A DNA stretch of 64,000 nt from Phaeacidiphilus oryzae TH49 (GTDB taxonomy: Bacteria > Actinomycetota > Actinomycetes > Streptomycetales > Streptomycetaceae), in contig NZ_JQMQ01000005.1 in assembly GCF_000744815.1 (NCBI RefSeq), forward strand, positions 256,055 through 320,054, read 5' to 3'. The number at the start of each line of letters is the position of its first letter. Positions within the stretch are counted from its first letter, which is position 1. This document shows, piece after piece, positions 1,320 to 21,795 of this stretch. The translations under genes were made by a program, and so were the position numbers. The notes under the pieces were generated by a model. The model saw nothing but the letters and a program-made list of their open reading frames with translations. It did no database searches and was not told the origin of the DNA.

Positions 1320-2135
1320 TCAGACGCCGGCCTCCAGGCCCGGCAGGTAGGCGTTCGCCTGCCCGGCCGCGCTCGGGTGGTAGGCCCCGCCGAAGTCGTA
1401 CCAGTTGTTGATCCAGGGGGTGGAGTCGCAGATCTCGTGTCCTGCGAAGCGGGAGCGGACGTCCTCGTAGGTGAAGCCGGAGTACTTGGCCACCTCGGTC
1501 TGGATCACGTTGTCGAGCAGGTCGGACCCATTGTCCAGGGCGGTGCGCTTGGTGGCGTCCATGGTGTCGGAGCAGGAGCTCTGGCCGCGGTCGTAGAACT
1601 CGGGGTAGCCGAGGATCACGACGTGGGCGTTGGGCGCGGCCTGGCGGATGTCGGAGTAGGTGGTGTCCAGCTTTGCCGGCAGCTGGTTCTGGGCCGTGCT
1701 CTCGGCGGTGGCGACCGCGCTCAGGCAGGTCGCGTCGGAGGAGAGGAGGCAGGTCTGCATGACGTTGGAGAAGCCGACGTCGTTTCCGCCGATGGTCATG
1801 CTCACCAGCGCGGTCGAGGAGTTGAGGCCGCCCAGCTGGTTGTCGATGACGTCGGTGGTGACGGCCCCGGCGCAGGCCGCGAAGTCGAAGCTGCTCGGGG
1901 AGGTGGCCTGGGCGTAGAGGTAGCCGTAGGCCGCGGTGCTGGTGTCGCAGGTGCTGTCGATGTAGGTGCTGCTGGCACCGTAGCCGGAGGAGTACGAGTC
2001 GCCGAGGGCCGCGTACGCGCCACCGCTCGCGTTCGCGGAGGCGGCGGAAGCGGAGGCGGCACCGAACAGTGTCGCCAGCAGTGCCACGACCGTCAGGGCG
2101 AGGCCGCGAAGTCGAAGCAGTCGGATGGGGTTCAC
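1320..2135 (-). CDS. secreted SGNH/GDSL-family lipase or esterase
   Basis: A 271-residue SGNH hydrolase. A Sec signal peptide (about residues 1-30, VNPIRLLRLRGLALTVVALL onward, ending near ASA) precedes block I ALGDSYSSGYG with the nucleophilic serine. Block III is IGGNDVGF and block V, YHPSAAGQ, carries the catalytic histidine. The six or more cysteines fit the disulfide-stabilised Streptomyces lipase subgroup acting on acyl esters outside the cell. The GTG start at 2135 has GGGGAAGGAT upstream; a longer frame to 2183 would add a non-signal N-terminus. It is transcribed alone, away from the sulfatase promoter region. Confidence 0.9.
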   Translation of the reverse strand: MNPIRLLRLRGLALTVVALLATLFGAASASAASANASGGAYAALGDSYSSGYGASSTYIDSTCDTSTAAYGYLYAQATSPSSFDFAACAGAVTTDVIDNQLGGLNSSTALVSMTIGGNDVGFSNVMQTCLLSSDATCLSAVATAESTAQNQLPAKLDTTYSDIRQAAPNAHVVILGYPEFYDRGQSSCSDTMDATKRTALDNGSDLLDNVIQTEVAKYSGFTYEDVRSRFAGHEICDSTPWINNWYDFGGAYHPSAAGQANAYLPGLEAGV

Positions 2136-2302
2136 TGGAGCATCCTTCCCCTTTGGGCATGTACAGGTCATCAACCTGGACACACGTGATCGTCGAGCGG
2201 GGATGTGCTGTGCTCACTGCGCTGCGCGCTCGGATGCGTCTCGCCGCCGTCGCGGCGGGCTCTGGGGAGATTGAAGGTTCTCAGTGGGAAAGAACCACAT
2301 TC

Positions 2303-2420: not shown

Positions 2421-2437
2421 CCGGATTAATTATCCGG
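2421..2437. promoter_or_regulatory. ROK-regulon operator, copy 1 (CCGGAT-N5-ATCCGG)
   Basis: Inverted repeat CCGGATTAATTATCCGG. The identical 17 bp recurs at 12928-12944. In both places it ends exactly 4 bp before a TTGACG hexamer. It is AT-rich at its centre in otherwise very GC-rich DNA. I infer binding of the ROK repressor encoded at 11560-12750, because the second copy lies next to that gene. Confidence 0.8.
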
Positions 2438-2441
2438 CCTG

Positions 2442-2471
2442 TTGACGATAATCGCTCAGGTTTCCCATGCT
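2442..2471 (+). promoter_or_regulatory. promoter of the sulfatase-amidase operon
   Basis: TTGACG (2442-2447), an 18-base spacer, then CATGCT (2466-2471). The same hexamers and spacer occur at 12949-12978, and nearly the same on the opposite strand at 12786-12758. Transcription would begin near 2478 and give a leader of about 140 bases that contains a CCCCTGC/GCAGGGG stem before the start codon at 2620. Confidence 0.7.
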
Positions 2472-2619
2472 GAGCTCAGCGCATCAGAGACCCCGCGCCG
2501 ACACAGCCCTGTCCGAACGTGCCACCGCCGGCTGCCCCCGCCCCTGCCGCATTGCTCCGCTCCGCAGGGGTTCGACTTCTCCCCTGCCAGAAGGTCGGGG
2601 AATCCTCCAAGGAGATTCG

Positions 2620-4110
2620 GTGACCTGCCCGACCGCTCCGAACATCGTCTTCGCCATGTCCGACCAGGTCCGCGCCGATTTCACCGCGGGCATGGGCTTC
2701 GAGCTGGACACGATGCCCTTTCTCGACTCCCTCGCCGCCGAGGGCACCCGCTTCCGACGGGCCTACACCACCGCCCCCGCCTGCGTCCCGGCGCGGACCA
2801 GTCTGCTCACCGGCAGATGGCCCAGCACCCACCGGATACGGCAGAACTCCAACACCAGCCCCACGCTGGTGTCCCGCGGCGACGACCTGATCGATGTGCT
2901 GCGCGGTGCCGGCTACCAGCTGTTCTACTCCGGCAAGACGCACATGTACCGGAACAGCCCGGCGGACTACGACGCCTTCTCCGAGTACGGGCACACCTTC
3001 GGGCCGGACACCACCGACGAGCAGCGCGCCTTCACCGCCTATCTGAACTCCATCGACATGGGCCCGACGACCGAGGCCACCCCGTTCCCGGCCGAGCAGC
3101 AATACCCGTACCGGATCGTCTCCGACGCCATCCGGCAGATAGACGGCCGCGACCCCGCCAAGCCCTTCTTCGCCTTCGTCTCCACGCCCGAGCCGCACAA
3201 CCCGTACCAGGTGTCGGAGCCGTACTTCTCGATGTTCGCCGAGGAAAGGATCCCCAGTCGGCTCTGCGGCCCCGAGGCCGCGGAGGCCAAGGGCGGTGCC
3301 TACAAGTGGCTGCGCGACCTGGTGGAACAGAAACGTCCCGGCTATGACGGCCTCGCGCAGCGCTACCGCGCCACCTACTGCGGCATGCTCCGGCTCATCG
3401 ACGACCAGTGGCGCCGACTCGTCGACCACCTCAAGGCCGAGGGCCTGTGGGAGAACACCCTGGTGTTCTTCCTCGCCGACCACGGCGACTACGCCGCCGA
3501 GTACGGCCTCCAGCGCAAGGGGGCCGGCATCGCCGAGGTCCTGGCGCACGTCCCGATGATCGTGCACGGTCCCTGCATCGCGACCAGGGACAACAGGACG
3601 GACTTCGTCTCGATCGCCGACATCCTGCCCACCGTGTGCGAGGCGATCGGCCGCCCGATCCCCCTGGGTGTCCAGGGCCGCAGCCTGTGGCAGATGCTCA
3701 CCGGTGCCGACTACCCGACCGCGGAGTTCGAGGACATCGTCACCGAGCGCGGCTTCGGCGGCCTCCCCTATCCCGACGACGCCCGGCCACCGCTGCACTT
3801 CCCCTACCCGGGCACCAGGTACGACGAGCTGAACAGCGTGACCCAGAGCGGCTCCTCGCGGATGCTCCGGCACGACCACTACAAGCTCTACGAGCATGTC
3901 TCCGACGGCTGTGAGCTCTACGACCTCGACAAGGACCCGATGGAGCTGGACAACCTCTGGGACGAGCCGAGGATGCGCAAGGTCCAGGCCGATCTCGCAC
4001 AGCGGCTGCAGCGGTGGTCGGTCCGGCTCACCGACGATCTCCCCAAAGGCGTCTACAACGCCAACCTCGCCCCCCACAACTGGTACCGGACCACGGAGGA
4101 GGACGCATGA
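2620..4110 (+). CDS. cytoplasmic sulfatase, formylglycine (Cys) type
   Basis: A 496-residue alkaline-phosphatase-superfamily sulfatase. The metal-binding start (NIVFAMSDQ) is followed by the sulfatase signature ACVPARTSLLTG, with Cys55 as the residue to be converted to formylglycine and Arg59. LADHGDY supplies the second metal-binding Asp/His. There is no signal peptide, so it should act in the cytoplasm. The GTG at 2620 is chosen because AAGGAG lies 5 bases upstream; the frame is open to 2467, which overlaps the promoter. It overlaps the amidase gene by ATGA. No formylglycine-generating enzyme is encoded in the window, so maturation must rely on one elsewhere. The substrate is unknown; a sulfated sugar or alkyl/aryl sulfate is inferred from context. 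Choline-sulfatase or phosphonate-monoester hydrolase activity is possible. Confidence 0.88.
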   Translation: MTCPTAPNIVFAMSDQVRADFTAGMGFELDTMPFLDSLAAEGTRFRRAYTTAPACVPARTSLLTGRWPSTHRIRQNSNTSPTLVSRGDDLIDVLRGAGYQLFYSGKTHMYRNSPADYDAFSEYGHTFGPDTTDEQRAFTAYLNSIDMGPTTEATPFPAEQQYPYRIVSDAIRQIDGRDPAKPFFAFVSTPEPHNPYQVSEPYFSMFAEERIPSRLCGPEAAEAKGGAYKWLRDLVEQKRPGYDGLAQRYRATYCGMLRLIDDQWRRLVDHLKAEGLWENTLVFFLADHGDYAAEYGLQRKGAGIAEVLAHVPMIVHGPCIATRDNRTDFVSIADILPTVCEAIGRPIPLGVQGRSLWQMLTGADYPTAEFEDIVTERGFGGLPYPDDARPPLHFPYPGTRYDELNSVTQSGSSRMLRHDHYKLYEHVSDGCELYDLDKDPMELDNLWDEPRMRKVQADLAQRLQRWSVRLTDDLPKGVYNANLAPHNWYRTTEEDA

Positions 4111-4766
4111 CCCCGCCGGTTCCCCGCGGCGACGACGACCGGCGACCCCTCCCCTCGCGACGTACCGTCCTGCGTGGCGCCGCCGCCGTCACCGCGGGCA
4201 CGGCGATCACCACCGCGGTCGCGACCGGAACCGCTTCCGCGGCCGAGGCCACCCCCTCCCCCGCGATCGTCGACCATCCGGGGGCGCACTGGCTGCCGGC
4301 CGACCCCGCCAACTACCGCACCGCTCAGCGCCCTCGCAGCCATCCGATCGAGTACGTGGTCATCCACGTCACTCAGCAGCACTTCGACGACGCCGTCGCC
4401 GTCTTTCGGAACCCCGCCCGGGGCACCTCGGCGCACTATCTGGTCCGCTCGGCGGACGGCCGCATAGGCCAGTGCGTCCGGGAGAAGGACATCGCCCGGC
4501 ACACCGGTGATCCGGACTTCGACAGCCGCAGCATCGGCATCACCCACGAGGGCTGGGTCCATTCCACCGCCTGGCTGACCGAGGCGATGTACGCCTCGTC
4601 CGCGGCGCTCACCGCGGCCGTGTGCGCACGCCATGCGATCCCGGTGGACCGTGCCTACATCCTGGGTCACCACGAGCTGCCCGGCGCCACCCACACCGAC
4701 CCCGGGGCCAACTGGGACTGGGGACGCTTTCTCACGCTGGTGCGGAAGGCGAGAACGCCGGCCTGA
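4107..4766 (+). CDS. Tat-exported N-acetylmuramoyl-L-alanine amidase-fold protein (Amidase_2/PGRP)
   Basis: A 219-residue protein with a twin-arginine signal (SRRTVLRG, hydrophobic stretch, cleavage near ASA) and an Amidase_2/PGRP-type zinc domain. VVIHVTQ gives the first zinc histidine, SAHYLV follows, and GHHELPGATHTDPG carries the second histidine and the conserved Asp-Pro-Gly end. Family members cut the amide between muramic acid and L-Ala in peptidoglycan. The start ATG overlaps the sulfatase stop (ATGA) behind GGAGGAGG, so translation is coupled and the gene is under the ROK-type promoter. Pairing an exported amidase with a cytoplasmic sulfatase is unusual. A role in wall remodelling or in degrading an amide-containing sulfated glycan is only inference. 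Confidence 0.85.
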   Translation: MTPPVPRGDDDRRPLPSRRTVLRGAAAVTAGTAITTAVATGTASAAEATPSPAIVDHPGAHWLPADPANYRTAQRPRSHPIEYVVIHVTQQHFDDAVAVFRNPARGTSAHYLVRSADGRIGQCVREKDIARHTGDPDFDSRSIGITHEGWVHSTAWLTEAMYASSAALTAAVCARHAIPVDRAYILGHHELPGATHTDPGANWDWGRFLTLVRKARTPA

Positions 4767-4774
4767 GAGCCGTC

Positions 4775-4812
4775 CGCCCGCTGGGCCCCGGACTCCCGGG
4801 GCCCAGCGGGCG
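4775..4812. terminator. bidirectional terminator between amidase and GH43
   Basis: A perfect 17-bp GC-rich stem (arms 4775-4791 and 4796-4812) with a four-base loop, placed between the convergent genes ending at 4766 and 4835. Confidence 0.85.
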
Positions 4813-4834
4813 ACTGCGAGCGAACGGCCGCCGT

Positions 4835-7288
4835 TCAGTCGCGGTAGACGTGGACGTAGTCGAAGCGCGCGACCGCACCGGCCGTGTTCATGGAGACCAG
4901 GCCGATCCTGAGCGGTCCCGTGATCGGCAGGGTCCAGACACCGGTGTCGACCCAGTGGCTGCCGTCCGTGCTCGTCGCGGCGCTCACGTCGTTCTGGTCG
5001 CGGGCGGCGTCCGCGTGGTACGTCAGGCGCAGCCACATGGTGTCCGCGGTCGGACCGCCGAACATCCGGCCGTAGGCGACGGGTTGCGGCGGCGTGTAGG
5101 TCGGGCGCTCGCCCTCCTTCCCGAATTCGGTGACGTCCACCTGAGCGCCGTTGCCGTCGTTGAGCGGCAGGGCGGTGTGGGTGAGCTTGAAGTAGCGATC
5201 GTCGTTCTGGTAGAGCACCAGACCGGCCTGCTGGGCCGCCTTCGTCGGGGCGAAGTGGATCTCCGTCTCGACCGTGTAGTCACCCGGGGGCGCGGGCCGG
5301 GTCAGGACGGAGGCGTTGTCGGTGGTGAGGTTGAGGTCCCCGTTCTGCGTCGGCCAGGAGAGTGCGCCGTCCGCCATGGAGACGCCCGCCGCGGGGCCCC
5401 GCACCCAGCTCCACGGCGAGTCCGGCGTGGTCCCTGGCACCGTGCCGCCGGTGAAGTCGTCGCTGTAGGCGGGCAGCAGGTGTTCCGGTCGCCGGGTGGG
5501 CACCCGGGAGGTGACGGGGGTGAACAGCTTGACCGCGCCCACGTTGTCCGAGGCCGTCGTGCCGCCGCGGGAGGCGGTGCCCACCGCTCCGGGCCGCGCC
5601 GCCGCGGGAGGAAGCCGACGCGTCTGGTCGGTCACGGCGTCGTTCAGCCGGTCCGCGCTGACCTCGGTGGTCATCACGCCGCCGCGCACCTCGACGGACA
5701 CGTTCTGCCAGGTGTCCCACGAGAAGTCCGCCGGAAGAGCGGAGGACTCCCGGTGGTGGACGCCGTTGACGACCGCGTCGGTCACCAGGGCGCCCGCCGG
5801 CCTGTCCAGCCACGCGGCGACGTAGTCGTCGGCGTCCCTGTAGTCGACGGTCAGTCCGGCGGCTCCGGAGGCCGAGGGTACTTCGAGATCGGCTTCGGCC
5901 CGCAGGTCCGCGGACGTGGAGGTGGACGTGGACGTAGACGCGTGGGCGGAGGAGACGAGGAAGGCCGGGGCGGCGTCCGTTCCGGTGTGGGTGACGTACC
6001 GCCCGGCGTCGGGTCCGGTCGTCAGTGACCATCCGCCGGGCTCCGTCCCGGTCGGCCGCCAGCCGGAGAGCGAGCCGTCGTTGAACGTGCTGCCCGCGTC
6101 CCACCCGGTGACCGGTGCGGTCTGCCTGCCCTGCGAGGGGCCGGCGCCGGCCCGGACCGTGGGCCAGCCGTCGATCCAGTCGAGCCGGTCGATGAGCATC
6201 GGCCGCCTGGTGAGCTCCAGTGTCCCGTTGTCGGCGGGCTTGAGGTCGGGGTCGTCGGAGGGGATGGCGTGGTAGACGAGCCAGTCCTGTCCCGAGAGGT
6301 CGGTCGCGACGGACATATGGCCGGGGCCGATCCATCCGTTGCCGTTGGCGGTGACCACGATGCCGCCCTTGCTGGTCAGGTCCATCAGGCCGACGCCCTG
6401 GGGGTCGGTGAACGGGCCCGTCGGGCTGGTGGAACGGCCGACCTTGACCTGATAGCCGCTGTAGGCGCCGTCGCAGCAGTTGGCGTCGGAGTAGAAGAGG
6501 TAGTAGTAGTCGCCCCGCCGGACGACGTAACCGCCTTCCATCCTGCGGCCCCGCGCCACCTGGGTGACGGCGCCCACGACGCGGGTGCGGTCGGCGTTCA
6601 TCCGGGCGACGCAGATGGTGTCGTAACTCCCCCAGTACATATAGGGGGTGCCGCCCTTGTCGGTGAACTGGGCCTCATCGATGTTGCCGGTGGGACAGCC
6701 GCTCGGGCTGGGCAGCACCTGGCCGCCGTCGGTCCAGGGGCCGGTCGGCGTGGGACCGGTGGCCACCGCGACGGTGTTGAGGCCGGGCACCGCGTAGTAC
6801 AGGACGTAGTGGCCGTCGACGTAGCGGATGTCCGGTGCCCACAGCCGGGAGCCCTTCTCCCAGGCGGGCTGCGTCTGGGGGGTGAACGCCTGGCCCGCGT
6901 AGGTCCAGTGCACCATGTCGGGCGAGCGCAGGATCGGCAGGATCCGCTCGCCGTCCTCGCCCTTGCTCTGGAACACCGGGTTCTGGGTTCCGTAGGCGTA
7001 CCACATGCCGTCCTTGCCGCGGATCATGGACGGGTCCGGGAACGTGTCGACCACCCCGGCGGTCACCGGGTTGGTGAAGGTGCCCGCGGACGTGCCGGCC
7101 GCTGAGGTGCCGGCCGCTGAGGTGCCGGCCGTCGACGTGACGGCCGCGTCCGGCTCCGCTGCCGCCTGCGCGGTGGGCGACATGCCGGTCTGGGGCAGGA
7201 CGGCGGCGGCGAGTGCGCATACCAGGGCCGTGATGCCGAGCAGGGGTGACCGCAGGCGTCTCAGCCTGCGGCCGGGTATCCGGTTCAT
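4835..7288 (-). CDS. secreted GH43-family glycosidase (arabinanase/xylosidase-like), multidomain
   Basis: An 817-residue secreted enzyme. A Sec signal (about 1-43) is followed by a short TSAAG repeat linker, then a five-bladed GH43 propeller (about 70-390). The classic acidic triad is visible: Asp85 in FPDPS, Asp153 in APDIRYVDG and Glu205 in NIDEAQF. A Ser/Thr-repeat linker region and two beta-sandwich modules follow; the last (about 620-817) resembles concanavalin-A-like accessory domains of GH43 enzymes. GH43 members remove or cut arabinofuranose or xylose chains. AAGGAG precedes the ATG at 7288. It is the last gene of the leftward ROK operon, 62 bases after the sulfatase. The exact bond cleaved cannot be read from the sequence. 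Confidence 0.88.
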   Translation of the reverse strand: MNRIPGRRLRRLRSPLLGITALVCALAAAVLPQTGMSPTAQAAAEPDAAVTSTAGTSAAGTSAAGTSAGTFTNPVTAGVVDTFPDPSMIRGKDGMWYAYGTQNPVFQSKGEDGERILPILRSPDMVHWTYAGQAFTPQTQPAWEKGSRLWAPDIRYVDGHYVLYYAVPGLNTVAVATGPTPTGPWTDGGQVLPSPSGCPTGNIDEAQFTDKGGTPYMYWGSYDTICVARMNADRTRVVGAVTQVARGRRMEGGYVVRRGDYYYLFYSDANCCDGAYSGYQVKVGRSTSPTGPFTDPQGVGLMDLTSKGGIVVTANGNGWIGPGHMSVATDLSGQDWLVYHAIPSDDPDLKPADNGTLELTRRPMLIDRLDWIDGWPTVRAGAGPSQGRQTAPVTGWDAGSTFNDGSLSGWRPTGTEPGGWSLTTGPDAGRYVTHTGTDAAPAFLVSSAHASTSTSTSTSADLRAEADLEVPSASGAAGLTVDYRDADDYVAAWLDRPAGALVTDAVVNGVHHRESSALPADFSWDTWQNVSVEVRGGVMTTEVSADRLNDAVTDQTRRLPPAAARPGAVGTASRGGTTASDNVGAVKLFTPVTSRVPTRRPEHLLPAYSDDFTGGTVPGTTPDSPWSWVRGPAAGVSMADGALSWPTQNGDLNLTTDNASVLTRPAPPGDYTVETEIHFAPTKAAQQAGLVLYQNDDRYFKLTHTALPLNDGNGAQVDVTEFGKEGERPTYTPPQPVAYGRMFGGPTADTMWLRLTYHADAARDQNDVSAATSTDGSHWVDTGVWTLPITGPLRIGLVSMNTAGAVARFDYVHVYRD

Positions 7289-7350
7289 CGGCGTCTCCTT
7301 GTGGGCCGGGAGATTGCGGATGGTGCTGCGGGTGGCGCGGACGGCGCGGT

Positions 7351-8817
7351 TCAGGCGGTGCCGCTCTGCTCGAAGGAGCTCAGGGTGACGTCGTAGTCGG
7401 AGGCGCCGATCTCGTACATCGAGGTCATCCAGTGGTAGAAGTTGTCGCCCCGCTCGCGCAGCAGGTCGTACAGCCGGCGCATGAGGCGGCCGCGCACCTG
7501 CCGCATCTCCGGATGCCGGTAGCGGTTGTGGAGTTCGTGCGGGTCCTCGACGAGGTCGTACAGCTCGTTGACCGACTCGGGGTTCACCACCAGCTTGTAG
7601 CGCTCGTCGCGCAGCATCCGCTGCGGGTAAGGGAAGTGGTGCCCGTGGAACTCGGCGACGAGTTCGTCGGGCCACTCCGGGCTCTCCCCCCGGACCAGCG
7701 GCACCAGGCTGCGGCTGTCGACGGCCGGCGCGGTGTCGCAGCCGGCCAGTTCCAGGATGGTCGCCGTGCAGTCGGTGAGGGAGACGAACTCCTCGCGCAC
7801 CTGCGGAGGCGCGCCGGGGATCCGGACGATACCGGGGATGCGGTAGATGTCCTCGTACATCGCCGGGCCCTTGTCGTGCAGCCGGTGGGCGCCGGTGAAC
7901 TCGCCGTGGTCGGCGGTGAAGAGGACCGAGGTGGAGTCGGTCAGCCCGAGTTCGTCCATCCGGTCCAGGATGCGGCCGATCTGCTCGTCGATCAGGGTGA
8001 CATAGCCCCAGTAGACGGCGATGAGCTTGCGGGTGACCTCGATCGGCATGGTGTCGAAGGTCCAGTGGGCACTGTAGTTGCGCTGGACCGGGGGCTTGCC
8101 CTCGAAGGTCTCGGCGATGGACGGCGGCAGCTCGACCAGGTCGGGGTCGTACATGTCGAAGTACTCGTCGGGCAGCAGGTACGGCAGGTGCGGTCCGAAG
8201 AAGTGGGTGGCCAGGAAGAAGGGCCGGCCGTCCGCGGCGTACTTCTCCAGCTGCTCGATGGCCCGGGTGGCCAGGTAGTGCTCGAAGGTCGCCTCCACGG
8301 GCTGGTGGAGCCGCGCCGCCAGCAGGTTGCCCGGGTTCCCGTTGGGGGTCGTCCCGCGGATCAACTCGGAGATCTCGTACGGGGGCAGGCCTCGCTCCTC
8401 GAGGAAGGCGAGGTAGTCGGGGTGGTCGACGGGGTTGTGCCAGCCGGGCAGGTCGGGCCCGTCGAATCCGTACGAGGCCGCGTTGCGGTGGGTGCCGCCG
8501 TGCCACTTGCCGATGAGGCCGAGCTGGTAGTCGCGTTCCGCGAGGGCACCGGGGAAGGTGAAGGCGTCGTCCCGCAGGTCCTCCAGGTAGCCGACGTTCC
8601 GCTCGTAGTTGGCGAGCAGCCGGTGGCGGAAGGGGGCCTGTCCGGTGAGGAGGCTGGCCCGGGCGGGGGTGCAGATGGCCGTCGGGGTGTAGAAGCGGTC
8701 GAAGCGGGTGCCGGTCGCGGCGAGCCGGTCCAGGTTCGGCGTGGCGACGTGCGGATTCCCGTAGCAACCGAGGGTGTCGACCCGGTGCTGATCGGTCATC
8801 AGGAAGAGGAGGTTCAC
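7351..8817 (-). CDS. cytoplasmic sulfatase, formylglycine (Cys) type (second)
   Basis: A 488-residue sulfatase. The N-terminus LFLMTDQHRVDTLGCYG and the ICTPARASLLTG signature (Cys49 to become formylglycine, Arg53) are clear, and FTADHGE supplies the later metal ligands. There is no signal peptide. The GTG start overlaps the stop of the upstream solute-binding gene (GTGA, 8814-8817), which implies translational coupling with the importer. Architecture and length suit arylsulfatase, choline-sulfatase or N-sulfoglucosamine-sulfohydrolase-like members. Being cotranscribed with an SsuABC-type transporter suggests that it desulfates an imported compound. Like the first sulfatase it needs an external formylglycine-generating enzyme. 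Confidence 0.9.
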   Translation of the reverse strand: MNLLFLMTDQHRVDTLGCYGNPHVATPNLDRLAATGTRFDRFYTPTAICTPARASLLTGQAPFRHRLLANYERNVGYLEDLRDDAFTFPGALAERDYQLGLIGKWHGGTHRNAASYGFDGPDLPGWHNPVDHPDYLAFLEERGLPPYEISELIRGTTPNGNPGNLLAARLHQPVEATFEHYLATRAIEQLEKYAADGRPFFLATHFFGPHLPYLLPDEYFDMYDPDLVELPPSIAETFEGKPPVQRNYSAHWTFDTMPIEVTRKLIAVYWGYVTLIDEQIGRILDRMDELGLTDSTSVLFTADHGEFTGAHRLHDKGPAMYEDIYRIPGIVRIPGAPPQVREEFVSLTDCTATILELAGCDTAPAVDSRSLVPLVRGESPEWPDELVAEFHGHHFPYPQRMLRDERYKLVVNPESVNELYDLVEDPHELHNRYRHPEMRQVRGRLMRRLYDLLRERGDNFYHWMTSMYEIGASDYDVTLSSFEQSGTA

Positions 8818-9794
8818 CGGGTGTAGGCCTTCGTGTAGAGGTCGCCTTCGTAGTACGTCGACGCGGCGGGCGCCTGCTTGAGCTGGCCGCTCTGCACGAA
8901 GAAGCCGGAGAGGCTGTCGAGCCACTTGCCGACCGTGCCGTCCTTCGTGGCGGCGACCAGCTGGGCGGTGGTCATCGTCTTCACGTTGGCGGCGTCCCGC
9001 GTGGTCTCGGCGGTGCTGACGTGCAGCATGGCGGCCGCGAGGCTGATCGACTGCGCGGGGTGGGCGGAGCGCCAGTCGTTGGCCTCCTGGAGGACCTTCT
9101 CCACCTTCGACACCAGCTTGGGGTCGGTCTTGTTGCCCGCGACGAAGGCGGTCGGGAAGGAGTCCTGGGGGAAGTCCGTGTCGCTGGCGATCTCGTGGAG
9201 ACCCGGCCGGTTCTTCTTGATCGTGTCCAGCAGCGGATACCAGATGCCGGCGCCGTCGATCTTCCCCGCGTCGAACGCCGAGACGATGGTCGAGGCGTCC
9301 ATGGGGATCACCTGGAGGTCCTTCTCGGTCATCCCGGCCTTCTTGAGCGCCAGGTCCAGGACCATCTCGCCGGAGGTGCCCTGCACGACGCCGACCTTCT
9401 TGCCCTTGAGCGCCTGTATCGAGTCGATGCCCGGCTGGCCGATGACGCGGTCGGCCGTGGTCAGCGTGTCGATGGCGATGACCTTCGACTTGCCGGAGGC
9501 GGGCAGCCACATCGCGCCGGGGCCGATGTAGCCGAAGTCGAGGTCGCCGGCGCCGAGCGCCTGGATCTGGATCGGGCCGTTGTTGAACACCTTGACGTCG
9601 GGCTTCAGCCCGGCCTTCTTCCACAGCCCCTCCTTGTCCGCTATCGCGAGGAGGCTGGAGCCGTTGTAGTCGCCGATGTATCCGAACCGCACAGTGCCGT
9701 CGTTGCCGGAACCGCCGGAGCAGGCCGTGAGGGACAGTGGGAGCAGCAGGGCGGCGGCGCACAGCAGAGCGGTGCGGCGAGCTCTTCTTCTCAT
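8814..9794 (-). CDS. ABC transporter solute-binding lipoprotein (SsuA/TauA/NMT1-like)
   Basis: A 326-residue lipoprotein with a lipobox ending at Cys25 (SLTAC), then a type II periplasmic-binding fold of the nitrate/taurine/sulfonate class (GYIGDYNGSSLLAIADKEGL, QALGAGDLDFGYIGPG, GKKVGVVQGTSGEM). This class feeds importers for sulfonates, sulfate esters, taurine, nitrate or thiamine precursors. The neighbouring sulfatases make a sulfate ester the best inference. It follows the ATPase gene after 136 bases containing a stable hairpin, which may raise its level relative to the rest of the operon, and it is coupled to the sulfatase by GTGA. Confidence 0.88.
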   Translation of the reverse strand: MRRRARRTALLCAAALLLPLSLTACSGGSGNDGTVRFGYIGDYNGSSLLAIADKEGLWKKAGLKPDVKVFNNGPIQIQALGAGDLDFGYIGPGAMWLPASGKSKVIAIDTLTTADRVIGQPGIDSIQALKGKKVGVVQGTSGEMVLDLALKKAGMTEKDLQVIPMDASTIVSAFDAGKIDGAGIWYPLLDTIKKNRPGLHEIASDTDFPQDSFPTAFVAGNKTDPKLVSKVEKVLQEANDWRSAHPAQSISLAAAMLHVSTAETTRDAANVKTMTTAQLVAATKDGTVGKWLDSLSGFFVQSGQLKQAPAASTYYEGDLYTKAYTR

Positions 9795-9866
9795 GACGGG
9801 GACCTTTCTGGACCGCGCGACGGAGTCGCGGAGGACGGGTGGGTTCGCGGCGGCGTGCCAGGGGGC

Positions 9867-9887
9867 GGCGCGGCGGAGCGCCGCGCC
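9867..9887 (-). other. intra-operon hairpin between ATPase and binding-protein genes
   Basis: Perfect 9-bp stem GGCGCGGCG/CGCCGCGCC with a three-base loop in the only long gap of the leftward operon. Such structures often stabilise or attenuate messages around binding-protein genes; the role here is inferred. Confidence 0.5.
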
Positions 9888-9930
9888 GGTGGGGTGGTGC
9901 CTTCGGCATCCCCGTGCCGCCGGCGGCGGG

Positions 9931-10716
9931 TCAGGCGGTGGCGTTGGAGGGCGTCGGCGTCTGGTGGTAGACCGCGTGCCAGACGTCGTTGCGGATGGCG
10001 CTGAACTCGGGCGAGAGCCGGATCTCCTCCGTCCTCGGGTACGGCAGGTCCACGTCGATGACCGAGTGGATCCGGCCCGGGCGGGCGGCCATCACCACGA
10101 CCCGCCGGGCGAGGTAGACCGCCTCGTCGACGTCGTGGGTGATGAACATGATCGTGCGGCGTTCCCGGTTCCAGGTGTCGAGCAGCTGGTCCTGAAGCTG
10201 CACCCGGGTCAGCGCGTCCAGGGCCCCGAACGGCTCGTCCATCAGCAGCACTTCCGGGTCCACCGCGTAGGCGCGGGCGATCGCGCAGCGCTGCTTCATG
10301 CCGCCGGAGAGCGTCTTGGGCAGCGCGTCCGCGAAGTCGGAGAGGCCGACCAGGTCGATGGCCCGCTCGGCGCGCCGCCGGCGTTCCTCGGCCGGCATCG
10401 ACGACAGTCTCAGCCCGAACTCGACGTTGCGGCGCACGGTGAGCCAGGGGAAGAGGGCGTACTGCTGGAAGATGACGCCGCGCTCCGGGCCGGGTCCGCG
10501 TACCGGGACGCCGTCCACCAGCGTCTCGCCCGAGTCGGGGTGGACGAGTCCGGCGGCCATGTTCAGCAGCGTGCTCTTGCCGCAGCCGGAGGGGCCGACC
10601 ACGGTGACGAACTCCCGGTCGTCGATGTCGAGCGACACCCGGTCCAGCGCGGTGAAGGTGGTGTCCTTCATCGGGTAGGTCTTCACGACCTCGCGGAACG
10701 AGATCTTGGCGGTCAT
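9931..10716 (-). CDS. ABC transporter ATPase (SsuB/TauB-like)
   Basis: A 261-residue nucleotide-binding subunit. Walker A is GPSGCGKST, the Q-loop is [13 protein letters not shown], the signature is LSGGMKQR, Walker B is [16 protein letters not shown] and the H-loop is [13 protein letters not shown]. The [10 protein letters not shown] pattern and C-terminal length match the nitrate/sulfonate/taurine group. The ATG at 10716 overlaps the permease stop (ATGA) and has GGAG upstream. It energises the importer made with the neighbouring permease and lipoprotein. Confidence 0.92.
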
Positions 10717-11525
10717 CGGCGCTCCTGCCAACGGGTGAGCCGCCGCTCGGCCAGGAGCAGCAGCCGGTCCATGACCAGGCCGAGCACCCCGATGGTGATC
10801 AGCCCCACGAAGATGGTGGTGAGGTCGTAGTAGGTCTCGGCGTGCTGCATCTCGTATCCGAGGCCCTGCTGGGCGGCGATGAGCTCGGCGGCGACCAGGG
10901 TCGCCCACGCGGAGCCGAGCCCGATCCGCATGCCGACCAGGATGAACGGCGTCGAGGCGGGGATGACCACCTTCAGGAAGATGGTCCAGTCCGAGGCGCC
11001 GAGCACCCGGGCCGCGTTGATCAGTGTCCGGTCGACGTCCACCACGCCCTGGAAGGTCGCGACGACGCAGGAGAGGAACGCGGCCAGGAAGATGACGAAG
11101 ATCTTCGGCGTCTCCCCGATGCCCATCAGCACGATCGCGAGCGGGATGATGGCCAGCGGCGGGATGGTGCGGAAGAACTGGATGTACGGCTCCAGCAGTC
11201 CTCGCGCGACGGAGTACCAGCCCATCAGGAAGCCGACCGGGACGGCGAGGGCCGTGCCCAGGACGAAGCCGATCAGCACGCGGCGGAGGCTGGCGAGGGC
11301 GTCGGCGGGCAGGGTTCCGTCGCCGATCATCTGGCCCGCGCGGGAGACGACGGAGACCGGTCCCGGCAGGCTCTGCACGCCGAGGGCGGCGAGGAGGGCC
11401 CAGATGCCCACCCCCACCACCACGGCCACCAGGTTGAGTACGAGCGGGTGGGTGACCCGGCGCCGCCCGGCACGTTTGGCGTCCGACTGAGCCGCCGTCT
11501 TCTCGGTAGTGGTCATCACGGCCAT
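10713..11525 (-). CDS. ABC transporter permease (SsuC/TauC-like)
   Basis: A 270-residue integral membrane protein with about six helices. It carries the EAA loop [20 protein letters not shown] that docks the ATPase, and [21 protein letters not shown] is typical of SsuC/TauC. The start at 11525 is supported by GAGG five bases upstream; ATG 11516 is an alternative. It begins 34 bases after the ROK stop and overlaps the ATPase by four bases, so the regulator and transporter form one message. Confidence 0.9.
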
Positions 11526-11559
11526 GAATGCCTCGATCCGGTCATGCCTCTCGTGCCTC

Positions 11560-12750
11560 TCATGCCTTCTCCTCGGGTTTGGACTCGGCCGGGTAGTGGG
11601 TCAGTAGGGGGGACTCGTGGAGCACCAGTGCGATACCGCCGAGGGCCGCGCCGGCCTCGCCGAGCTCCGCCGGACGCAGGCTCATCCGCCACCGGGACAC
11701 CGGCAGGATGTTCGCGCTCAGCGCGCGTTCGACCGGCTCGGTCAACGCCCGTCCCAGTGCCGCGAGTTCGCCGCCGACGACGATCACCGCCGGTCCGATG
11801 GCATTGCACACCGCGGCGAGCACGGAGCCGACCCGGGCGCCGGCCTCGCTCACCACGGAGCTCGCCCGGGCGTCACCGGACGCGATCGCCTCGATCAGCG
11901 CCGGTACGTCGTCCGCCCGACCGCCCTGGGCGCGATAGGCGCCGAGGACGGCCCCGACGGAGGCCACCGTCTCCAGGCAGCCGGTGCCGCCGCAGCCGCA
12001 CGGCGCGCCCTCCGGGTCCACGGTGATGTGGCCGAACTCGCCCGAGAGCCCCTCGGCGCCGCGGTGGAGTGCGCCGCCGACGACAAGGCCGCCGCCGACG
12101 CCATGGGAGAGCCGCAGATAGAGGACGTCCTGCTCACCCGTGGCCGCGCCCCAGGTCGACTCGGCGAGAGCGGCCAGCCGGGTGTTGTTGTCCACGAGCA
12201 CGGGGACCTCGAAGCGCTCGCGGACGAGCGCGGCCAGCGTGTCCCCGTTGTGCCCGAGACCGGCCTCCTCGCCCGGCCGGCCCACCGGTCCGACCACGCC
12301 CACGCCGATGGCGCCCAGCGCGCCGAGGCGCAGCGCTCCGCCGGTGAGCCTGCCGACCAGGCGCTGGGCGACGTCGACCCGCTTGTCCTCGGACATCTCC
12401 GAGCCGTGGGTCTCGCTCGCCGTCCCGACGATCTCGTGCGCCACGTTGACCACCGCGACGTGGACCGCCCGTCGTGCGAAGTCGATGCCGATCGCCTGCC
12501 CTGCCTGCGGGTTGAGGGTGAGCCGCTCCACCGGGCGCCCCCGCCCGCGGTGGGCGGACTGGGGTACCGACGTGACCACGGCACCGCTCGCTACCAGGGC
12601 ACTGATGATGTCGTAGAGAGTCGTACGGGAGAGCCCGCACAGGCCTCCCAGCTCGCCCCTGGTCATCGGCCCCTGCTTGCGCAGGAGGTCCAGGACGAGG
12701 CGCTCGTGATCTCTGCGCAGCCGCGACAGAGGACCCTCGTTCTGTTGCAT
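11560..12750 (-). CDS. ROK-family transcriptional repressor, first gene of the leftward operon
   Basis: A 396-residue NagC/XylR-type ROK regulator. An N-terminal winged helix (about 15-75; [21 protein letters not shown]) precedes the actin-like ROK domain. The GIDFARR phosphate-binding strand, the [15 protein letters not shown] segment and the zinc motif with [10 protein letters not shown] (spaced His and Cys) are all present. I start at ATG 12750 because a strong promoter on this strand ends only 7 bases upstream, which predicts a leaderless message; ATG 12762 would lie inside the -10 element. It leads the permease-ATPase-lipoprotein-sulfatase-GH43 operon and should repress it until a sugar ligand binds. 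Confidence 0.9.
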
Positions 12751-12757
12751 GGCGAAC

Positions 12758-12786
12758 AGCATGGGACCGCCGGTAATTTTCGTCAA
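12758..12786 (-). promoter_or_regulatory. promoter of the ROK-led operon (leaderless start)
   Basis: On the minus strand TTGACG (12786-12781) is followed by a 17-base spacer and CATGCT (12763-12758). The context TTGACGAAAAT and CATGCTG matches the two rightward promoters. The -10 ends 7 bases before ATG 12750, the spacing expected for a leaderless transcript. Confidence 0.7.
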
Positions 12787-12790
12787 CGCT

Positions 12791-12807
12791 ACGGAAAAAT
12801 AAATTTC
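12791..12807. promoter_or_regulatory. degenerate ROK operator at its own promoter
   Basis: ACGGAAAAATAAATTTC sits 4 bp from the -35 of the ROK promoter, exactly where the perfect operators sit at the two rightward promoters. One half (CGGANAANTAA) agrees with the operator at 9 of 11 positions and the other half is lost. Weak autoregulation is inferred. Confidence 0.45.
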
Positions 12808-12927
12808 GCCGAGCCGCGGATCGCGGACACCGCCGCCTCGACGGGCACGCGGGCGCGCGTCGGGGCGTGGCCGAAACGCGGCGGACCACCGCGCCGGCCG
12901 CCGTTACCCGATCGTGACTCCGAAGGT

Positions 12928-12944
12928 CCGGATTAATTATCCGG
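12928..12944. promoter_or_regulatory. ROK-regulon operator, copy 2
   Basis: CCGGATTAATTATCCGG, identical to 2421-2437, again 4 bp upstream of TTGACG. It lies in the 270-base divergent region between the ROK gene and the GH43-like gene. Confidence 0.8.
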
Positions 12945-12948
12945 ATGG

Positions 12949-12978
12949 TTGACGAAAATAACCGCCCCTTCACATGCT
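12949..12978 (+). promoter_or_regulatory. promoter of the rightward GH43-like gene
   Basis: TTGACG (12949-12954), 18-base spacer, CATGCT (12973-12978). The geometry is the same as at 2442-2471. Confidence 0.7.
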
Positions 12979-13020: not shown

Positions 13021-14364
13021 ATGACCAGCACCGAGAGCGGGTTCCCCCGGCGGTCCCTGTTGGCCGGCGTCGCCGGCCTGGGCGTGGCCGCGGCCCTGCC
13101 CGCGGCCGCCGCGCAGGCAGCGCCCGCACCGACGTCGAGCGCGTCGCCGAAGGCCTACCCGGCCAACTGGCCCGACCTCCAGCCGTACGGCCTCGCCGAC
13201 ACCCGGGTGGACCTGTGGCCGCGCAGGGACGACTCCTTCGTCCTCCCACTCGAACTGCGGCCTCGTGACAAGGCACTCGGCCGGGTATGGGTCCGGGACT
13301 TCTACGTCAACTGCTTCGTGGTCGACAACCGCCCGGTCTATGTCGCCACGGCCACCACTCGCGTGCCCGGGCTCACCGCTGCCGCGCCCTGGAACGACGG
13401 CATCTTCCTCTGGGTCTCCCCCTCTCTCAAGGGCCCCTGGAAGCTGGTCGACACGACCAAGATCCGGCCCGGCGCCGAGAAGGGCAAGGTGTGGTCGCCC
13501 GAGTTCGTGGACGAGAACAGGCCGGGACGCACCGTCGTCGCTCCGTGGCAGGAGTACTGGTACGACGACCAGTTCGGCAAGCGCGGTGAGGTCTGGGCCC
13601 CCGAGGTGCACTACTTCCAGGGCAGGTGGTACATCGTCGCGTGCATGGGCGACCACTCCACCAAGGTGGGGTCTTTCATGATCGTGAGCGAGGGCGGGCT
13701 CGAGGGGCCGTACCGGCTCATCGAGGGCAACGTCGACAAGCCCTTCGGCGACTCGCTCACCGGAGGGCCGGCGTTCATCAAGCCCGGCGCCTACTACCAC
13801 ATCGACGGCAGCTTCTTCTCCGAGGGCGACAGGGCCCGGCTCGTGCTGCACAACGACCTGTACGCCGAGTTCCGGGACGACATGGAGGACATCGTCCCGG
13901 CCACCGGCCTGCCGACGTTCCAGCAGACGCCCTACTCCCCCGAGCCCTACCGGGAAGGCGTCTACGTGTTCAAGTACGGCGGCAAGTACTTCCTCTCCCA
14001 GGCCACCTGGGACTGGAAGTCGACGAACCCCGACGGCACACCGCGCTACGCCTACGACACCCCCGGGGCGGGCCGCGTCCAGTACCAGTACGACTCGGTC
14101 CTCGCCGTCTCGGACACCTTCGAGGGCCCGTACTCCGCGCGGTACACCGCAGGCGTATCGGCCGGCCACAACAACTACTTCGAGGACCACCACGGCGGCC
14201 TGTGGGCGACGTTCTTCAACAACGGGAACGCCGGCTACTGGTCCGATCCGTCGCGCGTCGCCCAGGCGTCCGTGGCCGGCGTCGCGCGGGTGGAGTGGAC
14301 CGGCCCGGCGGGGAACCGCCTGTATTTCCAGCGCCGGAGCCCCGGGCAGTCGAAGACCGGCTGA
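13021..14364 (+). CDS. secreted GH43-like five-bladed propeller glycosidase
   Basis: A 447-residue protein with a Tat-like signal (FPRRSLLAGVAGLGVAAALP, cleavage near AQA). The propeller repeats have GH43-style blades: VWAPEVHYFQGRWYIVAC, YYHIDGSFFSEGD and WATFFNNGNAGYW. GH43 and related families hydrolyse arabinosides, xylosides or galactosides; the subfamily is not clear to me. AAGGAG lies about 10 bases before the ATG. The gene sits directly behind operator copy 2, divergent from the ROK operon, so it should be coregulated with both sulfatases and work outside the cell. Confidence 0.8.
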   Translation: MTSTESGFPRRSLLAGVAGLGVAAALPAAAAQAAPAPTSSASPKAYPANWPDLQPYGLADTRVDLWPRRDDSFVLPLELRPRDKALGRVWVRDFYVNCFVVDNRPVYVATATTRVPGLTAAAPWNDGIFLWVSPSLKGPWKLVDTTKIRPGAEKGKVWSPEFVDENRPGRTVVAPWQEYWYDDQFGKRGEVWAPEVHYFQGRWYIVACMGDHSTKVGSFMIVSEGGLEGPYRLIEGNVDKPFGDSLTGGPAFIKPGAYYHIDGSFFSEGDRARLVLHNDLYAEFRDDMEDIVPATGLPTFQQTPYSPEPYREGVYVFKYGGKYFLSQATWDWKSTNPDGTPRYAYDTPGAGRVQYQYDSVLAVSDTFEGPYSARYTAGVSAGHNNYFEDHHGGLWATFFNNGNAGYWSDPSRVAQASVAGVARVEWTGPAGNRLYFQRRSPGQSKTG

Positions 14365-14556
14365 CAGCGCGGTGCGCGGCGGCCGGACACCTCCGCCCCC
14401 GGAGGACCGACCGCCGCCACCCCCAGCGCCCCAGAACACGGCCCGCTCAGCCAGACGGGCTTCGAGAACCGACGCAACGTGCCCCGAGACACCGCAGCCC
14501 CGCACGGGTGAGGGCTGTCTTCGCTGATGAGACCCGACGGAAGGGCAGGCACACCC

Positions 14557-15834
14557 ATGCAGGAGAAAGGTCCGGAACTCGGCGGCGGGCCGCAGCGCGG
14601 GACGACGACCCGGCGCCGGTTGCTCAGCCTGTCCGCGGGCGCCGCACTCGCGGCGGCCGGGCTGGTGACCCGCGGCGCCGACCCGGCGTACGCCGGCAGC
14701 GCCGGGGCCCATCCCCGCGGCGCCTCGGAGTCCGCGCCGTCCGGCACGGTCCTGAACCAGGTGACCGCGCCCCCCGCCGCCAACGTCCTCGCCGCCAACG
14801 TCAACGAATCCCTGGACATGATCGACTACGCCGAACTGGGGGCGGTCTCCGCCACCTGGATCCGCGGCTTCTACCTGATGTCCGACGCCGACCAGAGCGA
14901 CCCGGCGACCCAGACCGGGATGGCCAAGCTCCTGCAGGCCTCCGCCGACGGCTACGGCACCGTGCTCTCCACGAAGTTCCAGTACCAGAACACGACGATC
15001 CCCGTGCCCGGCACCGCGGCCATGGACACCGCCCTGACCCGGCTCGACAAGGTCCTGGCCGCGGTGCTCGACAAGGTCGACCTCCTCACCATCGGCAACG
15101 AACCGTTCTACGAGACGAGCCCGCAGGACCGCACCACCTCCGCCATCAACGACTTCTACGAGGCACTGGCCAAACACGCCATCCAGTACCGGACGGCGAA
15201 CTTCGGGACGACCTGCAAGACAGCCTTCTACATGGGGGCACTCAACGGCCTGGAAGACCCCGCGAACCAGAACACCCAAACCGAGCGCTGGATGACCTTC
15301 GTCGCCGGCAATGCCGGCATCGCCGGTGTGGACATCCACCCCCACGTGGCGGGCATCGACGCGGCACAGAAGTACACCGACTTCATCCTGCCGTACCTCC
15401 GCCCGGACCAGACGTTCCTCGCCACCGAGTTCTCCCTGATCAAGCTCTGGGAGGAGCATATGAGCGACCCGGTGGACCCCTCCTACGCGAGCGCCTACGG
15501 CGTCCCGGCCGGCACCCTGGTGTGGCAGGTCATCCACGACGCCGCCAACAACCCCTTCACCGAGCAGAAGTGGAACGACTTCCTGCTCTCCAACACGTGG
15601 TTCGCCAACCACTCCACCTTCATCACCAACGAGATGGCCGACCTGCGCAACACCGGCAAGCTCGCGGTGGCGGGCTACGGCATCACCGAAGGCGCGCCGA
15701 TCCCCGACTTCGGCGCGAGCAGCCCGCCCTGGGTGCTCAACAGCATCTTCTGCCCCTACGTGTGCCAGATCGGAACGGGAGGCCTGCCCGGCCGCGACCG
15801 CACCTGGGCCGCCTCGTTCCGGGCCGCACAGTAG
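14557..15834 (+). CDS. secreted TIM-barrel glycoside hydrolase (clan GH-A-like)
   Basis: A 425-residue protein with a Tat-type signal (TTRRRLLSLSAGAALAAAG). The body looks like a beta/alpha-barrel retaining glycosidase: LLTIGNEPFYE gives a candidate acid/base Glu182 in the NEP motif, and FLATEFSL gives a candidate nucleophile Glu291; DIHPHV lies between. I cannot assign a GH family. Start ATG 14557 is preferred over 14527 because GGAAGGG lies upstream and the signal peptide then has normal length. It follows the GH43-like gene by 192 bases in the same direction and may share its promoter. Confidence 0.7.
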   Translation: MQEKGPELGGGPQRGTTTRRRLLSLSAGAALAAAGLVTRGADPAYAGSAGAHPRGASESAPSGTVLNQVTAPPAANVLAANVNESLDMIDYAELGAVSATWIRGFYLMSDADQSDPATQTGMAKLLQASADGYGTVLSTKFQYQNTTIPVPGTAAMDTALTRLDKVLAAVLDKVDLLTIGNEPFYETSPQDRTTSAINDFYEALAKHAIQYRTANFGTTCKTAFYMGALNGLEDPANQNTQTERWMTFVAGNAGIAGVDIHPHVAGIDAAQKYTDFILPYLRPDQTFLATEFSLIKLWEEHMSDPVDPSYASAYGVPAGTLVWQVIHDAANNPFTEQKWNDFLLSNTWFANHSTFITNEMADLRNTGKLAVAGYGITEGAPIPDFGASSPPWVLNSIFCPYVCQIGTGGLPGRDRTWAASFRAAQ

Positions 15835-17944: not shown

Positions 17945-18069
17945 GTGTGCCTCCTCCTGCCGAACCGGCAGACGCCTTCGGGGATACGGATCAAGGGGGA
18001 TCGGCAGGCGTGCTCGTATAGGATGAGACGCCGCTGGTGATGAGCAGTGGGTTCATCATGAGCGATCGT

Positions 18070-18083
18070 TTGCAACGATGCAA
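18070..18083. promoter_or_regulatory. LacI-type operator upstream of its regulator
   Basis: TTGCAACGATGCAA, an inverted repeat TTGCA-N4-TGCAA between the divergent GH2 and LacI genes. It differs by one base from the operator at 19414-19427. It probably mediates autoregulation and may repress the GH2 gene too. Confidence 0.75.
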
Positions 18084-18116
18084 GAGCCGCTTCGTCGGGC
18101 AGGAGGTGGGGCGCTG

Positions 18117-19229: not shown

Positions 19230-19413
19230 ACGGAACGCCCGGGGCGCGCGGCCGAGCCTCCCCTGCTCCCACGCGGCCACCGACACCGCGACACCCTGCC
19301 GCCCCCACCCCGCCACCGCGCGAACCCTCGCTTCCGCCCCCTCCCCCGCAGCCCTGCGCCCAGCCGCCGCCCTCCCCCTCGATATCAGCTGTTACACGGT
19401 TCCTTCTCGGCTA

Positions 19414-19427
19414 TTGCATCGATGCAA
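19414..19427. promoter_or_regulatory. LacI-type operator of the sugar ABC operon
   Basis: Perfect 14-bp palindrome TTGCATCGATGCAA, 59 bases before the binding-protein start. It is the near twin of 18070-18083 and the classic CG-centred shape of LacI-family sites. Confidence 0.85.
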
Positions 19428-19486
19428 ACTGTGTGCCAATGTTCCCGCCATCCGGTTCACATCGCAGTAACGAGGTGGATGCCCCC

Positions 19487-20827: not shown

Positions 20828-20838
20828 GAGGCTGACCC

Positions 20839-21783: not shown

Positions 21784-21795
21784 GCGGAGGACAGC

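Follow-up and report, generated by a model that had tools for sequence, protein, structure and literature searches.

A predicted ROK regulon linking sulfatases, GH43 enzymes and an ABC importer in Phaeacidiphilus oryzae TH49

Gene organization of the locus

We analyzed a 64,000-nucleotide stretch of DNA from the soil actinobacterium Phaeacidiphilus oryzae TH49 (contig NZ_JQMQ01000005.1, positions 256,055 to 320,054; referred to as the window, whose own numbering is used below). In it, a gene for a ROK-type regulator lies among genes for sulfatases, GH43 enzymes and an ABC importer. An earlier note had proposed a ROK regulon here, marked by an identical operator-promoter module at two distant promoters and a decayed third copy at the ROK gene. 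The module begins with a 17-bp palindrome (17-mer) of the form CCGGAT-N5-ATCCGG. Our analysis supports a regulon, probably a larger one, and gives the copy at the ROK gene another meaning. The locus comprises the following features.

2421 to 2437, plus strand: 17-bp palindrome CCGGATTAATTATCCGG before the sulfA promoter, exact match
2426 to 2452, plus strand: putative ROK dyad over the sulfA -35 (T-rich arm 2426-2433, N11, A-rich arm 2445-2452; arms imperfect, register taken from the class-level scan)
2442 to 2471, plus strand: promoter of the sulfA-amidase unit, TTGACG-N18-CATGCT
2620 to 4110, plus strand: sulfA, cysteine-type sulfatase with a CVPAR motif at residue 55
4107 to 4766, plus strand: amidase (Amidase_2) with a Tat-like N terminus, overlapping the sulfA stop
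4835 to 7288, minus strand: GH43 glycosidase, at the 3′ end of what is presumably the ROK operon
7351 to 8799, minus strand: sulfB, cysteine-type sulfatase with a CTPAR motif at residue 43
8814 to 9794, minus strand: SsuA-family substrate-binding protein (TIGR01728 above cutoff)
9931 to 10716, minus strand: SsuB-like ABC ATPase
10713 to 11525, minus strand: SsuC-like ABC permease
11560 to 12750, minus strand: ROK regulator of 396 amino acids (aa), with a putative leaderless ATG at 12750
12758 to 12786, minus strand: ROK promoter, TTGACG-N17-CATGCT, 7 nt before the ATG
12776 to 12802, minus strand: putative ROK dyad at the ROK promoter (by eye, 4 complementary pairs out of 8 between the arms)
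12928 to 12944, plus strand: second exact copy of the 17-bp palindrome
12933 to 12959, plus strand: putative ROK dyad at the GH43-like promoter (by eye, 3 complementary pairs out of 8 between the arms)
12949 to 12978, plus strand: promoter of the GH43-like gene, TTGACG-N18-CATGCT
13021 to 14364, plus strand: GH43-like protein with a Tat-like N terminus, paired with the ROK module in numerous further genomes
14527 to 15834, plus strand: g14527, a Tat-signal-like protein whose regulation in the window can only be guessed at

The minus-strand genes ROK, ssuC, ssuB, ssuA, sulfB and GH43 run in one direction with short gaps; the GH43-like gene is divergent from ROK and is followed by g14527. The ROK protein matches PF00480 with 155.2 bits over positions 2 to 293 of the 294-position profile, while its N-terminal HTH_24 match (20.7 bits) lies slightly below the cutoff of 21.9. 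ROK regulators from the PDB, namely, 1z05, 3bp8, 1z6r (Mlc) and 5f7p (Lmo0178), align over residues 10 to 379 with at most 109 bits, and the cysteine zinc motif of ROK regulators, CxCGxxGCxE, is present. On these matches, the protein classes as a full-length ROK-family transcriptional regulator with a predicted N-terminal winged helix-turn-helix (HTH) and a ROK domain. Equivalog identity with Mlc or NagC was not reached in the NCBIfam models (128.6 of 530 bits and 127.6 of 650 bits, respectively).

Specificity of the module within the genome

A scan of the window for the 17-mer, allowing three mismatches, returned four matches, which are the two exact sites read on both strands, compared to a mean of 0.02 in shuffled sequence. 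Downstream of each copy come a 4-bp gap, TTGACG, an 18-bp spacer and CATGCTG. At the ROK gene, TTGACG-N17-CATGCTG occupies 12786-12757 of the minus strand. The pattern TTGACGN{14,20}CATGCTG was observed three times in the window and not once in 100 shuffles. Throughout the 7,806,543-bp genome, the exact 17-mer is confined to the two window sites; at three mismatches, three further places appear, all without TTGAC 4 bp downstream. The shorter pattern TCCGN5TTGACGNWAAT matches without mismatch at the sulfA, GH43-like and ROK promoters of the window and nowhere else; one mismatch adds a single site, and the reversed control gave none. Thus, the identical module at two promoters and the matching promoter of the ROK gene on the opposite strand were both found as first described, and the 17-mer followed by 4 bp and TTGACG is not scattered through the genome.

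Recurrence at orthologous promoters

Since the genus consists of one genome, a genus-level pattern search was uninformative. A scan of 394 genomes of the family at up to two mismatches gave 17-mer matches in 30 of them (one locus read per genome). In most of these matches, the TTGAC at a distance of 4 bp is missing, and at this setting the 17-mer by itself is therefore unspecific; modules with the 4-bp gap and TTGAC stand before GH43-like orthologues in G038, G140, G137 and G209. The loci of relatives were collected by an alignment search of genome contigs with the GH43-like protein (best 80 of 136 relatives). A ROK gene was found by tblastn in 42 of the 80, mostly together with ssuCBA and sulfB; 16 are closest to the window ROK (type A) and 26 to the ROK of L035 (type B).

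We examined the promoters of 47 ROK genes from the loci first examined (18 of type A and 29 of type B, with L036 and L080 belonging to a single genome). In all 47, TTGAC(G) is extended by A/T-rich sequence, and the start codon follows a -10-like hexamer by 6 to 7 nt, the hexamer rule being loose. Each also has, as judged by eye, a T-rich stretch 4 bp before the -35, with an end such as TTCCGA/TTCCGG or CTGTCGG. By eye, the ROK-promoter copy in the window equals the 17-mer in 9 of 17 bases, and its right half, TTTTTCCG, resembles what the other ROK promoters retain. The comparison with orthologue flanks therefore removes one part of the earlier note: the T-rich, single-sided site that had been taken for a degraded operator is the form present at 47 of 47 ROK promoters, and the copy is not decayed. 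The spacing suggests that ROK genes probably start leaderless. In L251 (5747-9415) and L252 (1270-4913), a third ROK type (44 to 45% identity to the window ROK) stands directly before sulfB and a gene for a formylglycine-generating enzyme (FGE), a sulfatase maturase, behind its own T-rich/TTGACG promoter, and these genomes also carry type A. In Microbispora (L183 to L186), type A-like genes have a different TTGACA promoter and the GH43-like genes are without the operator.

A site matrix was trained on 29 GH43/sulfA-class sites, with no ROK promoter in the training set and a line of 14 bits. Applied to 1.83 Mb of related loci (115 sources; L001, L002, L006, L007, L008 and L087 were excluded as repeats), it returned 83 sites above the line: 54 before GH43-like genes or paralogues, 28 before ROK, 1 before sulfA and none elsewhere. 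The pattern TTTCCGN5TTGACGAAA, allowing one mismatch, matched 56 times in 31 of 35 genomes, compared to 2 matches for the reversed control. Of these, 48 lie in ROK, GH43-like or GH43-like2 loci (at L255, at a contig end, the gene is out of view), 5 look like chance, and 2, both in G395, precede homologues of g14527 (46% and 45% identity). The last one (G402:C59, L262 at about 210-310) is an orphan operator-promoter with an ATG 7 nt after CATGCT. The codons that follow read like broken ROK first codons; no open reading frame (ORF) of at least 250 aa was present on that strand in the 3.2 kb read.

In relatives, a GH43-like paralogue behind an operator of the same kind precedes sulfA (with the amidase as well in L038; the paralogue is shortened in L036). 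The two identical window copies therefore probably belong to duplicated GH43-like units, one of which would have lost its GH43-like gene here. In L038, a tandem pair of operator-promoter modules (9564 and 9515, minus strand) lies ahead of the GH43-like2-sulfA-amidase unit.

Association in trans with window-type ROK

In 32 genomes, the GH43-like locus is without a ROK gene, and we asked whether a window-type ROK (at least 61% identity) is encoded elsewhere (L092, L057, L069, L084, L087 and L118 are omitted from the table). With such a ROK (17 of 32), 16 of 17 GH43-like genes carry the operator; without it, 1 of 15 does (Fisher P = 7e-7). Counting only matrix scores above 14 bits gives 13 of 17 versus 1 of 15 (P = 8e-5), since L045, L063 and L110 (11.1, 11.6 and 13.5 bits) are positive by looser rules only, one rule for L045 and another, applied to 24 loci at once, for L063 and L110. 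L044, a TTGTC site without the half-site, was flagged by the looser rule and scored negative; counting it gives 16 of 17 versus 2 of 15 (P = 5e-6). L072 was taken as ROK positive though its match covers residues 73 to 401, as was L046, whose match is in two pieces in one open frame. The same module stands at the start of 15 of the 17 unlinked ROK genes themselves, these being the ones with a located start (all but L072 and L046). In Nonomuraea-type genomes, GTTA and a CAGACT hexamer are common to the ROK and GH43-like promoters, as is a TTGACC variant in two of these genomes. GTTA or CTTA is found in 8 of 9 GH43-like promoters outside Streptomyces, with ACTG in L053.

FGE as a remote candidate member

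The sole 1-mismatch half-site in the genome (G000) precedes a gene for FGE (L124:452-1474), 968 kb from the window module. The protein scores 256.9 bits with PF03781 and aligns with the PDB FGE 6s07 (E = 6e-111), including CHESYCNRYR; the corresponding FGE segment is CHxSYCNRYR. No second FGE was found in this genome at E values up to 1e-30. Its start codon lies 7 nt after a -10-like hexamer, and its promoter is the only perfect match to ATTTATGTNCGN5TTGAC in the genome (two sites at 2 mismatches, eleven at 3), a pattern devised after the FGE site had been seen, from sulfB-class promoters of other genomes.

An FGE gene is present in the same locus in 32 of 42 ROK loci (next to sulfB in 27) versus 2 of 38 loci without ROK, and L075, L085, L089 and L115 have sulfB and FGE behind one sulfB-class operator. 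We retain FGE as a member in P. oryzae TH49 because relatives keep it in the ROK locus, adjoining sulfB in 27 of 32 cases. The idea that FGE is a promoter target common to relatives was rejected: in 17 other type A genomes, none of 25 FGE loci (one of them a fragment) has that promoter directly upstream.

Form of the operator

We scanned the promoter classes for dyads (scan means 0.26 to 0.28, standard deviation about 0.1). The best centre lies in the 4-bp gap for type A ROK promoters (0.55; next, 0.52 at centre 30), type B ROK promoters (0.61; next, 0.58 at centre 35) and the sulfB class (0.66; next, 0.41), which consists of nine sulfB and two GH43-like promoters (L061 and L096) chosen after inspection. 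In the same register, ATTTATGT-N11-ACATAAAT or variants occur at the sulfB promoter of nine type A loci and at the GH43-like promoters of L061 and L096. We tentatively read the common operator as a T-rich and an A-rich arm forming a dyad that overlaps the -35 and is centred in the gap, where three of the four classes have their highest score. The 17-mer may then be the left arm of this dyad with an extra inverted half-site and perhaps not the minimal operator.

Several points count against this dyad. In the GH43 class, centres 35.5 and 35 (0.46 and 0.45) beat the gap centre 28, which only equals the 17-mer centre (0.44 each); the next-best centres are close in the type A (0.52) and type B (0.58) promoters; and the scores average over classes of related sequences. 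The window's copies of the dyad over the -35 are weak, with 3 to 4 of 8 pairs matching by eye, which is why we infer this operator rather than read it directly.

Regulator-like coding sequence behind target promoters

In three of 35 genomes of one genus, Actinacidiphila-type (G038, G140 and G137; G140 is 7% contaminated and G137 71% complete), an ORF of 103 to 104 aa lies between the operator and the GH43-like gene and starts 7 nt after the -10. A fourth genome, G108, has the GH43-like gene, and no module was found there. The ORF encodes an HTH without a ROK domain that is closer to type A (70 to 85 bits) than to type B (43 to 44 bits), and the full-length ROK of these genomes is of type B. 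The ratio of nonsynonymous to synonymous substitution rates is 0.28 to 0.33 in three pairs (0.17 to 0.32 for the GH43-like gene), with one in-frame indel (Fisher P = 8e-4, one pair). This free-standing ROK DNA-binding domain is apparently under selection.

Among 44 GH43-like leaders picked by a loose rule, 29 have a start codon at the matching place (21 ATG and 3 GTG at offset 7, 5 ATG at offset 6). These could instead be leaderless starts of the GH43-like gene itself, as they are in frame in L094, L098, L099, L120 and L033. L077, L079 and L120 read like ROK first codons; such a likeness reaches a z value above 2 in only 9 of 41 leaders, and we therefore do not claim promoter copying as general. 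Together, the sequences suggest that the module may have spread by copying of the regulator's 5′ end.

Neighboring genes

For g14527, no match was found in Pfam, NCBIfam or PDB; it has an IGNEPF stretch of the kind found in glycosidases. Homologues lie near GH43-like genes in several loci, and two stand behind operator modules in G395. At 16022-22686, genes for a GH2 enzyme, a LacI regulator and a sugar-type ABC importer form a second carbohydrate locus adjoining the ROK regulon. A GDSL-type lipase/esterase is encoded upstream of the sulfA unit (1320-2183, minus strand).

Discussion

We consider it highly probable that the window encodes a ROK regulon, local in scope, that serves the use of sulfated glycans or of sugar sulfates, with the operator over the -35, control most likely by repression, and FGE co-controlled. 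The regulon claim is well supported because the module is specific within the genome, recurs at orthologous promoters and is associated in trans with a window-type ROK; its geometry is conserved as well. That much of the earlier proposal stands. The decayed copy drops out, and membership is probably larger than first proposed, taking in FGE and perhaps g14527.

Binding by ROK, repression, the operon structure, the ligand and the substrate are what we infer, as follows. ROK would be encoded first in its own operon, ROK-ssuCBA-sulfB-GH43, and would bind a T-rich left arm and an A-rich right arm, about 11 bp apart, over the -35 of a strong promoter with a short leader or none. By covering the -35, it would most likely repress, until released by a ligand, probably a sugar or sugar sulfate derived from the substrate. 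At the GH43-like and sulfA-amidase promoters, the left arm with its second inverted half-site could admit a second dimer and tighter control. FGE, an enzyme of the kind that activates cysteine-type sulfatases, would be co-controlled from 968 kb away, so that importer, sulfatases, FGE and GH43 enzymes would be induced together.

Other observations speak against such a regulon. Matrix sites were found in 45 of 79 scanned GH43-like loci and were absent from 34; type B loci of other genera (L047, L056, L070, L083, L113 and L117) are without a GH43-like module; and the half-site varies in single bases (e.g., CCCAA at the L082 ROK gene). The trans test has two exceptions, L046 with a window-type ROK and no operator and L071 with the reverse. 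More distant ROK paralogues and the type A-like genes (57 to 58%) of four Microbispora have other promoters and no half-site, and the FGE promoter is unshared by 25 other FGE loci. The similarity of ROK and GH43-like promoters in 15 unlinked pairs is 0.69 within and 0.63 between genomes (shuffled, 0.36); this excess is significant when pooled (P = 5e-5), but not within Streptomyces (P = 0.09) or the rest (P = 0.06). Coevolution of the two promoters beyond phylogeny was thus rejected, and phylogeny may explain the pooled excess.

Among the alternatives, an activating ROK in the same regulon is possible, if unlikely: a dimer near -39/-40 from the predicted start would recruit RNA polymerase, as with SsuR and CysR of Corynebacterium glutamicum. 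The dyad centre would lie near the class II activator position, about -41.5. However, a near-consensus -35 with 17- to 18-bp spacing usually needs no activator, and most ROK sugar regulators are repressors. Precedents for activation are ROK-type SsuR, which activates sulfonate genes, and the dual regulator CysR, both encoded by leaderless genes (PMC2580772).

Improbable, in our estimate, is the 17-mer itself as the operator, a CCGGAT-N5-ATCCGG dyad for ROK or another regulator, with the ROK promoter sharing only ancestry; ROK binding would then depend on CCGGATTA. In GH43-class promoters, the 17-mer dyad does equal the -35 dyad, and the exact 17-mer is found again in L048. Nevertheless, the left half is missing from the ROK, sulfB and many GH43-like promoters, in which the right half, the gap and the -35 extension are kept, and the module tracks the presence of a window-type ROK. 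We give little credence to promoter homology without common control, in which duplicated promoters would be too young to have diverged: the likeness does run through spacer, -10 and first transcribed bases, and ROK-like first codons seem retained behind some GH43-like promoters and one orphan copy, but the half-site is retained across genera while spacers differ and goes with type A ROK.

Returning to the ROK regulon, we tentatively suggest, as a plausible rather than a probable history, that it grew by copying of the autoregulatory 5′ end of the ROK gene before targets, with the coding part mostly lost. The Actinacidiphila-type copy would then be a selected free-standing DNA-binding domain, cotranscribed with the target enzyme, that is blind to the ligand and competes with full-length ROK, or partners it, at the ROK operator. 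Such a domain is uncommon as a circuit component, and what it does to inducible control is directly testable. The locus also makes a case in which to ask whether regulons grow when an autoregulated promoter disperses along with the first part of its regulator gene. More generally, the analysis offers an actinobacterial ROK regulon for which an operator is predicted, along with a testable list of genes (importer, sulfatases, sulfatase maturase and GH43 enzymes) and a trans test across genomes. Much of the circuit appears readable from DNA alone, since one promoter design recurs in many relatives.

A literature search, conducted on titles and with subscription papers mostly outside its reach, returned none on a ROK-sulfatase regulon. 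The window ROK shares the full-length repressor architecture of Mlc, NagC-like proteins and Lmo0178, but reaches at most 109 bits, fails the equivalog cutoffs and has other gene neighbors. RokB of Streptomyces coelicolor binds at PnovH an inverted repeat, TTTGTTC-N11-GAACAAA, and resembles the system predicted here in being a ROK regulator with a similar spacer, T/A arms and sites also at its own gene (PMC4856308). It differs in a hinted role in amino acid metabolism and in genomic sites without a perfect inverted repeat, and no CCGG palindrome is met in the accessible part of that paper (PMC4856308). T-rich and A-rich arms also characterize the sites of Mlc, NagC, SsuR and CysR (PMC2580772). 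SsuR and CysR are ROK-type regulators of sulfonate and sulfate assimilation in C. glutamicum (PMC2580772). Like them, the window ROK belongs to an actinobacterium and is linked to ssu genes, its gene is probably leaderless, and its predicted operator has T-rich/A-rich arms. Whereas their targets include sulfonate monooxygenases, the genes here encode sulfatases, GH43 enzymes and FGE, and the operator is different. The likeness is one in kind, and by this analogy SsuR and CysR would be the nearest known ROK sulfur regulators.

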